A DNA stretch of 33,996 bases from Chthoniobacterales bacterium. Lineage in GTDB: Bacteria; Verrucomicrobiota; Verrucomicrobiia; Chthoniobacterales; UBA10450. Positions 9,001 to 25,794 of this stretch are shown piece by piece. The notes below the pieces were generated by a model. It did no database searches. It was given only the letters and a program-made list of their open reading frames with translations, and was not told the origin of the DNA. How positions within the stretch are numbered: the stretch's first letter is position 1; each line of letters begins with the position of its first letter. The position numbers and the translations under genes are program-made. The stretch covers positions 1 to 33,996 of the forward strand of contig JAICMR010000019.1 in NCBI GenBank assembly GCA_025929155.1, in the 5' to 3' direction.

Positions 9001-10671
9001 AATGCGCTCGGCCAAGCGATGAGCAGATGGGCTGACGAGCTTTATGAAAAAAGAAAGCGAAGGCAACCCTCAGGCAAAGTCATTCTTGGTTACGGAAGTG
9101 GAACCGCGACTCACGATGTGGACTTCGAAGAAGCTGCCACCGCCCTATCTGAGATCCTTGATAACTGTCCGCAGACTGAACTCTGGATCGCGGGGCCGCT
9201 CACCTTGCCGGACGCGCTCAGTCGCTTCGGGGACCGGGTTCGCCTGTTTCCTCTAACAAACTGGCGTGGCTGGTTTGAACTCATGAGTGAGATGGACATC
9301 GCGCTTGCGCCGCTGGAGGCGAACAACCTTTTCTGCCGGGCCAAGAGTGAAATTAAGTTTGTGGAAGCGGGAGCCATGGGTCTGCCAGTGGTTGCTTCCC
9401 GAATCGATCCTTTTGCGCAAGCCATCTCTGAAGGAGAAAACGGAATTCTAGCTGGGACGAGCACGGAGTGGAAACGGGCGTTGCAACTGTTGATCGAGCA
9501 GCCGGAGAAACGACTGGCAATGGGTGAAGCGGCTCGCCTGACAGTTGCCCAACGCTATAGCCCGGAAGCGCGGACCTCGGACCTCGCGAAGATCCTAAAG
9601 CAGATCGGCTGTGGGGAAAGAATCACGGGTTCTGCCGCGGCGCTCTTGAAACTCAACTGGCTTATCCCTGAGCCTTTCCCTGGCGCGGGCGGCGACATGG
9701 GTATTTTCCGGATTATTCGTTATCTCGCCGAGTTCGGCCATGACTGTCGAGTCTATGTCGTGGCGTATGACTTGATGAATGACTTTGATAGTGAGCGAGT
9801 GCGCAAATATATCCATGAGCATTTCGGACCTACACGTGCGCATTATGAACGCTGGGATGGAGTGGTGCGAGACGCCGATGCGACCTTTGCCACTTTTTGG
9901 CCAACCGCGGAGAACCTGCTCGCGCTTCCCAACGGCGGCCGTCGCTACTATCTCGTGCAGGATTTCGAACCGTCGTTCTATCCGGACGATCCGCGCCATT
10001 ACGAACGTGCGGAAAAGACTTATCAATCAGGTCTCCGCTGCATTACTCTCGGTCCGTGGCTGGCGAAGCTTTTGCGTGTCAAATATGGTGCGAAAGCGAG
10101 TTACTTCGATTTTGCGGTCGATACACACACTTACTTCCCGCGACCTGGACAACATTCGGGGATCAGGAGAGTGTGCTTCTACGCTCGTCCCGCTACGCCG
10201 CGACGTGCTTATGAACTGGGACTAAAGGCCTTTGAGCTCCTCCATCAGCAACTTCCGGAAGTGGAAATTGTTTTCTTCGGCGCAGATGCTCTTATCCCCA
10301 CTCCTTCGTTTCCACATCGCAATTGGGGCAAGGTGAGTCAGGGCGAGCTGGCGAAACTCTACTCAAGCTGTGATGTAGGAGTGGTTTTCTCGCTTTCCAA
10401 TCCTTCTTTCGTGCCGCTCGAGATGATGGCTTGCGCTTGCGCGGTCGTCGAACTGGCGAGCGAACGATGGGAAGGAATCCTGACCCATGGAAAAGACGCC
10501 TGGCTCGTCGATTCGAGCCCCGAAGCAGTTGCCAACGGCGTCAAAGAGCTATTCACGAACGATTCCTTGCGGGAGCGATTGGTCGAGGCCGGCTTGCAAC
10601 GGACTCGCACCATGAGTTGGCGCAATTCTGCCCGTCAGGTCGAAACCATCCTGCTGAGTGATGACTCCTGA
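6031..10671 (+). CDS. Very large multi-domain glycosyltransferase (CgeB-like, GT2, GT4, WsaF-like)
   Basis: About 1,546 residues with at least four transferase modules. Residues 1-120: the small GW/SGF domain also seen in the upstream protein. About 170-475: a GT-B domain resembling CgeB/spore-coat glycosyltransferases (RRVELFATSKSN, ITFLGSLTDRREEFF, NSKILLNVHYSEQRYFEWH, NGCCIITE). About 582-800: GT2 (VISVVITLYNYARF, VVEDASTDDS, MMDADNLIYP, FGWEDYDLWLR). About 838-1193: GT4-like (FDTDDLVFEPD, VILGYGSGTATHD, KFVEAGAMGLPVVAS). About 1206-1546: WsaF/rhamnosyltransferase-like GT4 (LNWLIPEPFPGAGGD, YYLVQDFEPSFYPDD, PSFVPLEMMACACAVV). Start: ATG 6031, overlapping the previous stop as ATGA; an in-frame GTG at 6022 is the alternative. 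The protein could assemble a multi-sugar repeat. From about 7.4 kb onward it lacks exact copies of the window-wide motif and by eye seems less GC-rich, so the 3' part may have a different origin. Confidence 0.87.
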   Translation: MSRSASKPAGAAFAFRLDTPIPGRVFAGEVQVTGWLLHRTGEPIHGIRAVVEKRFRRRRICRARRKRSRLDAAAAFPELPGAKSSGFLLQIPLSLGKQRVRLEVQDAARVWRLFHLAQVRALPLQSLARLGFPRVRRLLLGSLTRSYGAQNILRAPATPDSVTTSRPRASTIRRVELFATSKSNLFIREIGELLAAGFAEVGIPAQLHLDQPPVENPPDELLQIVVTPHEFFNLYLTQSFSREDARRLARGAILLGTEQPETRWFQSNLQWAPSARGMADIHPLGVLAYCTRDMPCHHLALGYHPRLRSRMQKPSVARSVDITFLGSLTDRREEFFARHAEFFSQRPCHLRFVPLDFAKTKTTRSYLDAEKRNALLANSKILLNVHYSEQRYFEWHRLLVGLANGCCIITETCEGHGPLVPGEHFIMVEPENLIPACEYYLAQPNECARIAEQGFAFVEKHLRQAQLCENFLRDLPGAGCAVPRDAAAVPLPRALRRNFARLRRRDFSQAVAADLHEFMRAPALPAEPKPAPSNEMVATQRAQAIERRSAYHVRLEEQESRRATGENVWTLHDNDSYAAGAAPVISVVITLYNYARFIRDCVASIESSASQLGEVIEVIVVEDASTDDSLAQALVCQKDTGLPMRIVAKHFNTGLADARNVGIRLARAAFVFMMDADNLIYPPALRELFAAISVGERAAAYSLLARFRETPRECFGLLSPFPWDPQILVQQPYVDAMALFRRDVLLELEGYDSQLSQIGWFGWEDYDLWLRLAARDLPVGFVPNILCLYRQHDISMLSLTNLFELDLVSHFYERFSELSDRFEPQATLFGVDRRKIRKGKCSFFIASGCPIATTTLYRCVHLQEQLARLSHEANVAEWFNEEAIDLEEALSYDVIVLYRLPMSARVRELLGRAQKTGKRVIFDTDDLVFEPDLISWHRAVAQLSEKNQEQHRMGVQRYLETLLAANVVLTSTPLLAEYAAARGKQTYVHRNALGQAMSRWADELYEKRKRRQPSGKVILGYGSGTATHDVDFEEAATALSEILDNCPQTELWIAGPLTLPDALSRFGDRVRLFPLTNWRGWFELMSEMDIALAPLEANNLFCRAKSEIKFVEAGAMGLPVVASRIDPFAQAISEGENGILAGTSTEWKRALQLLIEQPEKRLAMGEAARLTVAQRYSPEARTSDLAKILKQIGCGERITGSAAALLKLNWLIPEPFPGAGGDMGIFRIIRYLAEFGHDCRVYVVAYDLMNDFDSERVRKYIHEHFGPTRAHYERWDGVVRDADATFATFWPTAENLLALPNGGRRYYLVQDFEPSFYPDDPRHYERAEKTYQSGLRCITLGPWLAKLLRVKYGAKASYFDFAVDTHTYFPRPGQHSGIRRVCFYARPATPRRAYELGLKAFELLHQQLPEVEIVFFGADALIPTPSFPHRNWGKVSQGELAKLYSSCDVGVVFSLSNPSFVPLEMMACACAVVELASERWEGILTHGKDAWLVDSSPEAVANGVKELFTNDSLRERLVEAGLQRTRTMSWRNSARQVETILLSDDS

Positions 10672-11896
10672 AGAGCTTCCATCGCATCATTTCCAACCTC
10701 TGCGCTACGGTTTGGGGGCGTGGACCGAACATATTTTCTTTGCCTATGACGTGGTGGCGCAGCTGCGGCCCGCTGTCTTAGTCGAATTAGGAATGGATCG
10801 CGGTGAGAGTTACTTCGCCTTTTGTCAGGCTGCGCTCGAGACTGATACGAAAACTCGCTGCTTTGCAGTGGATCATTGGCGGGGCGACCCGCACGCCGGA
10901 AGTTACGATGAAGCCACCTTCATGGAAGTAGCGAGTTATAACCAGGAGCATTACGCCACCTTCTCGACTTTGCTGCGATCATCCTTTGATGACGCCCTAC
11001 ATAACTTTGCGCCTGAAAGTATTGATCTTTTGCACCTGGACGGCCACCACTCCGAGGAAGCGGTCCGGCATGATCTGGACTTGTGGCTGCCCAAACTGCG
11101 GCCCGGTGGAATCTTGCTGATGCACGATGTGGCGATGCGCGGGCGCGGGTTTGGCGTTTGGAAAGTGTGGGCAGAACTGATCGCGCGGGGGCGTTGGTTC
11201 ACGTTCGACACGCCGCCGGGTCTGGGAGTCTGGGAAAAGTTACCAGTGCAGATGCAGCCCCTGCTGCTCGAGACACTGCTCCGTCATGCCGAGCGAAGCG
11301 GAGCGGAGTCGAGTGATCGCGATGAGTTGCTGAGCGGCTTCGAAGCAGGCCATCCGGGCGCCAAGGTTGCGTCGCGGGATCCTTTGGCTCCGCAATGCTC
11401 CGCCGAGGATGAACGGGATGGTTTGCGACGGTATTACCGAGAGCACAATTCCCGGTTGCAGGAAAAGATAGCCGAGCAATGGCGTGACGGAAGCGTTCGG
11501 AGCGCGCCGATGGCAGGCGAAACAGTTATCCAGGTTTTCTGGTCGAGTGATGGCGACTTTTCCGAAGAACAGTCGGTAGACGCGCGGATCGGGCACGGGA
11601 GTTGGAAAGACGTCGTGATCCCGCTGCCTAACGAGGCGCCTGTGAGTCAGCTGCGAATCGATTTCTTTAGCGCGCTCACGATCATTGAAATCAGCGAGAT
11701 CAGCGCTGACACCCGGCCACTCGACCTCGCTGCGATCTCGTTAGGCGGCGACTGTGTACGGCTGAGTCTCGAGCCGTTTCGAATCCAGATCACAGGAATA
11801 GATCCGCAACTTTACCCAGCTGTTTTTTCCCCTGCTTTCTCCGTGCCAAACCTGGCTATTCGACTGCGATTACGCGTCAGCCAAACGCGGCTTTAA
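10661..11896 (+). CDS. Class I methyltransferase with C-terminal beta-rich domain and repeat-derived linker
   Basis: 411 residues. The N-terminal domain (to about 205) is a Methyltransf_24-type SAM enzyme: AVLVELGMDRGESYFAF is motif I, CFAVDHWRGD follows strand 2, IDLLHLDGHHSEEAV is the active-site strand, and PGGILLMHDV is the next strand. The C-terminal domain (about 285-411) looks like a beta-sandwich (IQVFWSSDGDFSEEQSVD, GSWKDVVIPLP, QLRIDFFS), of the sort attached to glycan-modifying enzymes. The linker between them, about residues 208-252, is encoded by a dispersed inverted-repeat element (11283-11413). Start: ATG 10661 (a GTG lies at 10658); it overlaps the preceding gene by 11 nt, so translation is probably coupled. 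It is the last gene of the glycan cluster, convergent with nusB. Substrate unknown. Confidence 0.8.
   Translation: MTPEELPSHHFQPLRYGLGAWTEHIFFAYDVVAQLRPAVLVELGMDRGESYFAFCQAALETDTKTRCFAVDHWRGDPHAGSYDEATFMEVASYNQEHYATFSTLLRSSFDDALHNFAPESIDLLHLDGHHSEEAVRHDLDLWLPKLRPGGILLMHDVAMRGRGFGVWKVWAELIARGRWFTFDTPPGLGVWEKLPVQMQPLLLETLLRHAERSGAESSDRDELLSGFEAGHPGAKVASRDPLAPQCSAEDERDGLRRYYREHNSRLQEKIAEQWRDGSVRSAPMAGETVIQVFWSSDGDFSEEQSVDARIGHGSWKDVVIPLPNEAPVSQLRIDFFSALTIIEISEISADTRPLDLAAISLGGDCVRLSLEPFRIQITGIDPQLYPAVFSPAFSVPNLAIRLRLRVSQTRL
11283..11413. repeat. Dispersed inverted-repeat element (family A, copy 1) inside a coding sequence
   Basis: The left arm, 11283-11318, begins GTCATGCCGAGCGAAGCGG and ends GGAGTCGAGTGATC. 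The right arm, 11371-11413, begins GTCGCGGGATCCT and ends GAGGATGAAC and is a diverged reverse complement of the left. It matches the element at 15498-15613 and, more loosely, the one at 25655-25794. Here it is open in the methyltransferase frame and encodes a hydrophilic linker (RHAERSGAESSD, later SRDPLAPQCSAEDERDG). Confidence 0.7.
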
Positions 11897-14907: not shown

Positions 14908-15507
14908 ATGCCCCATCGCAGTTCCGGTCCATCGTCGCCAAATCGCTACGTCGCTTTTCTCCGCGGTATCAATCTGGGTAAGCGGAGGCCACCGATGAGC
15001 GAGTTGCGGGCGCTCTTCGTTGAACTCGGTTTCGCCGAGGTCGAGACCTTCATCGCCAGCGGGAATGTTCTCTTTTCAACCACGAGCAACGAGGCAAAGA
15101 AGCTCGAGGAAAAGATCGCGCAGCATCTCGAGAAGTCGCTCGGTTACCGAGTCGATACTTTTCTGCGCACGGCTGAGGAAGTCGTCGCGCTCGGAGAAGG
15201 CAAAGTCTTTCCGGAGGAAGGCCAGGAAGGAATCACCGTGCACGTCGGATTCCTGCACGACAGGTTACCGGCGGACGCAGCGAAGAAACTGACTGCCATG
15301 AAAACAGCCGAGGACGAGTTTCGCGTCGGCGAGCGGGAGTATTACTGGCTTTGCCGGGTTCGCACCTCCGACTCCAAAGTCTGGAGCCATCCGGAGGTGC
15401 GCGCCCTGAAATTGCCTGCTTCGTCGATGCGTAATATGACCACTGTTCGGAAGTTGATCGCAAAACATCTCGTATCAGCAAGGTCCCGAACAGCCGAGTC
15501 ATCCTGA
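14908..15507 (+). CDS. DUF1697 family protein
   Basis: 199 residues. The family signature is clear: RYVAFLRGINLGKRRPPMSE, then LRALFVELGFAEVETFIASGNVLF, and later a conserved C-terminal region (LPASSMRNMTTVRKLIAKHL, normally R-N-W-nTv-kL). Function is unknown for the family. Start: ATG 14908, preceded by CAGGAG ten bases upstream. The last residues (after about SARSRTAESS) and the TGA stop come from the left end of a dispersed repeat element (15498-15613), which seems to have replaced or extended the natural C-terminus. It is divergent from the ACT-domain gene. Confidence 0.88.
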   Translation: MPHRSSGPSSPNRYVAFLRGINLGKRRPPMSELRALFVELGFAEVETFIASGNVLFSTTSNEAKKLEEKIAQHLEKSLGYRVDTFLRTAEEVVALGEGKVFPEEGQEGITVHVGFLHDRLPADAAKKLTAMKTAEDEFRVGEREYYWLCRVRTSDSKVWSHPEVRALKLPASSMRNMTTVRKLIAKHLVSARSRTAESS

Positions 15508-15613
15508 GCGAAGCGGAAACGGAGTCGAAGGATCCCGTGGAGTTTCCGTAGCACGAGCGTGCACGAACAATCGCGGGATCCTGGGCTCCGTCTTTTGGCC
15601 CGCTCAGCCTGAC
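15498..15613. repeat. Dispersed inverted-repeat element (family A, copy 2)
   Basis: The left arm, 15498-15534, begins GTCATCCTGAGCGAAGCGG and ends GGAGTCGAAGGATC. The right arm, 15571-15613, begins TCGCGGGATCCTGGGCTCCG and ends CTCAGCCTGAC, its imperfect reverse complement. The arms read GTCAT-CTGAGCG...GGATCCCG and CGGGATCC...CAGCCTGAC. The element overlaps the 3' end of the DUF1697 gene and supplies its stop codon. Confidence 0.75.
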
Positions 15614-25654: not shown

Positions 25655-25794
25655 GTCATTCGGAGCGGAGCAGCGGAGCCGAGGGGCCTGTTCAGCTTCC
25701 GTTGGCTTCGATTGCGGCTTTTTGAGAGGTCAGCTTCGCACCTCCCGTCGATTCACCGAATCCCTCGACTCGTTTCAACTTCTCTCGAAATGAC
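25655..25794. repeat. Dispersed inverted-repeat element (family A, copy 3)
   Basis: The left arm, 25655-25690, begins GTCATTCGGAGCGGAGCAGC. The right arm, 25758-25794, begins GAATCCCTCGACTCG and ends CTCTCGAAATGAC, and its reverse complement starts GTCATTTCGAGAGAAG, matching the left arms of copies 1 and 2. The 67-base centre shares no clear sequence with the other copies. It lies between the glutaredoxin and penicillin-binding protein genes; the remaining 100 bases before 25895 show no promoter or other feature. Confidence 0.65.

Follow-up and report, generated by a model that had tools for sequence, protein, structure and literature searches.

Positions 11283-11413 of the window, the 33,996-nucleotide stretch of DNA analysed here, hold a diverged copy of a dispersed palindromic element of ~110-190 bp that is translated as part of a methyltransferase. 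It corresponds to contig 43 in a draft genome of 3.4 Mb (G000), and the named relatives are Chthoniobacterales MAGs. An earlier note had proposed that this segment is a dispersed inverted-repeat element, and our analysis confirmed that identity. We consider it highly probable that the two domains of the methyltransferase were already fused when their linker received this palindrome, a non-autonomous mobile element of ~130 bp.

The host gene is a 412-aa ORF on the forward strand (10658-11896), with an architecture assigned from two-domain homologues. The protein begins with a Methyltransf_24 domain (residues 42-158; 10781-11131, + strand; E = 4e-26) and ends with a domain predicted to be beta-rich (residues ~253-409; 11414-11884, + strand), which was recognized from homologues and is strand-rich in a low-confidence model. 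The element lies on the translated (+) strand and is open in the methyltransferase frame, adding 44 hydrophilic residues (~209-252) between the two domains, in agreement with the linker described in the earlier note. An AlphaFold model built from three sequences had a mean pLDDT of 48 and was used solely to record that residues 214-248 carry no predicted helix or strand.

Arm matches and codon shuffles support the assignment of this segment to the family. We used an arm model (R1) that was built from other copies with the window copy left out, and calculated E values over 97 kb. The left arm (11283-11321, + strand) scored 31.4 bits (E = 2e-8). The inverted right arm (11374-11412, – strand) scored 29.4 bits (E = 8.6e-8) for the match at 11373-11412, with the alignment at 11375-11412. 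Against the 39-nt family consensus, the left and right arms scored 25 and 24, respectively, compared to a best score of 14 for the reversed window. In 2000 codon-shuffled versions of the methyltransferase gene, the 99th percentile of the arm score was 15.0 and the maximum was 17.5, and thus both arms match far above the level of shuffled sequence. The arms of the window copy are nevertheless decayed with respect to the consensus. A scan of the window against Rfam gave no match at gathering thresholds.

The methyltransferase segment had also been likened to two other elements in the window. This likeness holds for the copy at 15498-15613 (+ strand), which belongs to the same family and has a left arm with E = 2.8e-12. 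It holds only in part for 25655-25794, where the left arm alone is recognizable (25655-25685, + strand; R1 18.2 bits) and the copy is a remnant. The 15498 element provides the stop codon of ORF 14908-15507 (TGA, 15505-15507), and the last codons of that gene are derived from the element. In the G002 orthologue of this ORF, an element is found shortly downstream of the gene's own stop codon.

Element-free homologues of the methyltransferase

We collected methyltransferase homologues by searching 147 genomes. Twelve homologues from several genera contain the two domains with a short linker between them, and their alignment shows that residues ~209-252 are an insertion absent from all of them. 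Two of the twelve, the orthologues in G003 and G004 from the same genus as G000, are syntenic and lack the element. In G004, the conserved neighbours are a glycosyltransferase gene upstream and nusB, ribH and ribBA downstream; in G003, the upstream gene is conserved. Because element-free homologues and syntenic empty orthologues carry both domains, the two-domain architecture is older than the element. These data rule out the suggestion that the element created or fused the protein. Conversely, the linker could be ancestral and lost elsewhere, as loss is always formally possible. This scenario is hardly credible, because each of the other 12 homologues would have to have lost the linker, and the match of both arms to dispersed repeats would have no explanation.

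The methyltransferase gene of the sister genome G002 also carries an element, inserted at the identical base and in the identical phase as in G000. We considered the possibility that both descend from a single ancestral insertion rather than from two independent captures. Besides the shared position, the tree pairs the two genes, albeit with weak support (0.69), and in uvrA the elements of G000 and G002 are clearly akin to each other (score 89.5). The methyltransferase elements themselves score 33.5 against each other, which is no closer than unrelated copies, and the G002 element is near-consensus and closest to other copies from G002 (68.0). Thus, unlike in uvrA, similarity gave no signal of common ancestry for the methyltransferase inserts of G000 and G002. 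Moreover, a single uvrA loop can hold different palindrome families. We give even odds to a single ancestral insertion with later replacement, as against two independent insertions.

The dispersed family and its in-frame captures

Members of the family are inverted pairs of ~44-nt arms with the consensus GTCATCCTGAGCGGAGCGCAGCGGAGTCGAAGGATCCCGTGGAG and ends of the form [C/T]GTCATCC...GGATGAC[A/G]. BLAST with the 15498 copy gave 44 scored matches in G000, and 25 arm pairs were delimited in this genome. R1 detected at least 150 arms in each of G000 and G002, 111 in G004 and 26 in G003. In a phylum-wide sample of 115 genomes, only two had matches at a strict threshold, namely G000 and G016 from the same bacterial family, indicating that the high copy number reflects local expansion. 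Among 43 complete copies, a pyrimidine is favoured before the element and a purine after it, and we found no target-site duplication (no flank matches of four or more bases). With neither a target-site duplication nor a single-base filled/empty pair between near-identical genomes, we infer mobility from dispersal.

Other in-frame captures, which the earlier note had suggested looking for, were sought by scanning the surroundings of 77 fetched elements for coding frames that span them. Three further clear captures emerged, two of them in G000. One lies in the apparently tandem uvrA gene of G000, where the insert reads SERSGAQRNGFEGSGGAAVKPARRSFSEAPRDHSTALRSAQDD; one occupies the same uvrA loop in G002; and one forms a linker in a G000 glycosyltransferase, where the insert reads PETPRDPSTPLRWAQDG and is absent from homologues. 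In an alignment of uvrA from 30 genomes, seven have an insert at this one loop, and the close relatives of most are empty. Five of the seven inserts have arms of this general type, and the other two are from G003, with another arm family (L204), and G019, with an unrelated perfect palindrome (GGGGAGCGCACGCGACTCGCGTGC..., L207).

The captures of this family share one charged phase, read as HPERS or RDPST..RSAQDD. The arms could also be read in another open phase, which is more hydrophobic (VILSGAQRSRRIP and GILRLRCAPLRM). Use of the charged phase fits with selection for polar inserts, judged on few independent cases. The length and phase of the methyltransferase insert keep the reading frame open, and its phase is the stop-free charged one of the other captures found here. 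We propose that it survived because ~44 polar, probably disordered residues can be accommodated in the linker between the domains. Such an insert would be near neutral. Most other elements that entered genes were presumably purged, and this would account for the repeated captures at the same loops in sister species.

Near-perfect hairpins persist in the G002 methyltransferase copy and in several uvrA copies, which could mean that the hairpin is retained for an mRNA or DNA function in the host gene and is not merely tolerated as protein sequence. However, such hairpins are equally compatible with recent insertion, the arms of the window copy have decayed, and occupancy is patchy, with sites empty in close relatives. 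We consider a retained hairpin function quite improbable, and favour tolerated insertion.

Several features of uvrA were recorded alongside the captures. In most of the genomes aligned, the gene sits in an open frame of ~1800-2200 codons (L201-L230), and a partial reading of the G000 gene suggests a tandem double UvrA. The alignment has a second length-variable site near query residue 195. Further downstream, the segments GPVFGASPKTSS...GTRGACAPQ (G002, L197) and GSARASRAGFGPSPKTSV (G000, L198) form hairpins, and a further repeat family may be represented here by in-frame copies.

In-frame capture of a palindrome is a known kind of event. The RPEs of Rickettsia are ~150 bp palindromic repeats that are dispersed, lie in frame in unrelated genes and encode a short peptide (reviewed in PMC10969869). 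The present family resembles them in dispersal, in-frame position within genes and the short encoded peptide, as a many-copy dispersed palindrome with copies open in frame in genes whose homologues are without the element. It differs in phylum, presumably in sequence, and in having ends in common with GIY-YIG elements. Intragenic REPs have likewise been reported in frame in genes, including uvrA of the verrucomicrobium Opitutus terrae (PMC3733652), and share with our captures the occurrence of in-frame palindromes in genes, uvrA among them. GTAG/CGTC REPs are stem-loops of 20-40 bp, one end of which bears a GTAG or CGTC tag (PMC3733652), in contrast to the two ~44-nt arms, ~110-190 bp length and GTCAT/ATGAC ends found here. 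Size and tag led us to reject assignment to this REP class. Palindromes of this sort are a known but seldom documented route by which selfish DNA extends proteins, and recurrence at the same loops across one bacterial family means that genome comparison can reveal where proteins tolerate insertions.

GIY-YIG genes between inverted arms

The sole stand-alone GIY-YIG gene of G000 (G000:C53:7855-8079) sits between a + arm and a – arm of the family. The arms of this element (G000:C53:7727-8149) score 50.5 and 52.2 bits, and a 106-aa GIY-YIG ORF fits just inside them; the short palindromes thus share their ends with an element of this genome that carries a gene, as a non-autonomous GIY-YIG class would. 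R1 arms also flank both sides of GIY-YIG genes in G004, G010 and G016, giving four genomes from three genera together with G000. G016 contains two strong R1 matches only, the better of which is 28 bp from a GIY-YIG gene. Counting against the link, R1 arms are missing from most of the remaining GIY-YIG genes in the genus, and G003 has GIY-YIG genes yet just 26 R1 arms.

Inverted repeats around such genes are not confined to the R1 arms. Of 27 small GIY-YIG genes that scored highly and had complete flanks, 22 are spanned by an inverted repeat above the 99% shuffle level, compared to one of 20 uvrC controls. A second, lower-scoring set speaks against the link, with inverted repeats for only five of 18 genes, and the two sets together (27/45) differ from uvrC (1/20; Fisher p = 2e-5). 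A 16-nt repeat that differs from the R1 arms, TTCACCCCGTGAGATA, has 12 sites in the ten genomes searched: eight form four inverted pairs, each around a small GIY-YIG gene, and one further site adjoins such a gene. A third arm family surrounds a GIY-YIG gene in G001 and an apparent frame-broken one in G003. In G001, G002 and G003, this family is also present in the form of short palindromes whose arms are separated by ~86 bp. Because arm families bracket GIY-YIG genes and the third family also forms short palindromes, we infer from these sequence relationships that the palindromes are probably gene-less, non-autonomous derivatives of GIY-YIG elements.

We regard the GIY-YIG connection as probable and as the part worth following. 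Full-length relatives with the same ends, such as G000:C53:7727-8149, would encode the endonuclease, and the short palindromes would be gene-less copies mobilized in trans. We put the chance that the family moves, or once moved, in this way at slightly below even. More tentatively still, small GIY-YIG endonucleases that stand alone in Verrucomicrobia, and possibly in further phyla, may be the mobility enzymes of an undescribed inverted-repeat class, whose gene-less derivatives would be abundant palindromes that repeatedly turn into in-frame protein linkers.

The main rival to GIY-YIG mobilization is a RAYT, or Y1 tyrosine transposase, that acts in trans as for REPs and REPINs, with GIY-YIG genes colonizing some palindromes later. 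RAYTs are the proposed mobilizers of GTAG REPs (PMC3733652) and are able to act in trans, and G000 contains one Y1_Tnp gene. However, the 3-kb contig that carries this only Y1_Tnp gene has no family arms, in an assembly that is incomplete. The elements are also ~110-190 bp inverted pairs of ~44-nt arms that lack a GTAG tag, and several different end families enclose GIY-YIG genes, always as inverted pairs. On balance, we think mobilization by a RAYT unlikely. A RAYT as linked mobilizer was rejected on the absence of arms near the sole Y1 gene, and so was membership in the REPIN/RAYT class, in which the RAYT gene is flanked by the repeat, with the same reservation about the incomplete assembly.

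The family shares with bacterial MITEs its short, non-coding form, terminal inverted repeats, many copies and ends that match those of a presumed parent carrying a gene. It differs from them in lacking target-site duplication and in having a candidate parent that encodes a GIY-YIG nuclease rather than a DDE or Y1 transposase. We rejected the classical DDE-transposon MITE because, despite the terminal inverted repeats, the 43 complete copies lack target-site duplications. The gene-bearing elements resemble GIY-YIG homing endonuclease genes (PMC1564403) in that presumably mobile sequence carries a small nuclease gene of this type. Unlike in homing endonuclease genes, this nuclease gene is associated with no intron or intein, has inverted-repeat borders and occurs in diverse flanks instead of one homing site.

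In the openly licensed literature, our searches turned up no previous description of bacterial chromosomes with inverted-repeat GIY-YIG elements. In the literature of this kind that we searched, we likewise saw no report of the element family, of repeated captures at the same loops across a bacterial family or of ends in common with GIY-YIG elements. If GIY-YIG mobilization is true, palindromes without a known transposase would have a dedicated nuclease. Such a link would bear on how palindromic repeats with no transposase of their own are mobilized, as raised for CGTC REPs (PMC3733652), and on whether further GIY-YIG proteins are molecular parasites, a question posed in PMC1564403.

Two further observations concern the surroundings of GIY-YIG genes. 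The apparent frame-broken gene in G003 (L267; G003:C113:25300-26200) lies between sister-family arms and resembles a decaying full-length element. In addition, copies of a REP-like palindrome, CCGCGTAAAAGGCTTCGCCTCACGCGG, flank small GIY-YIG genes at six loci (L091, L097, L098, L105, L233 and L239).
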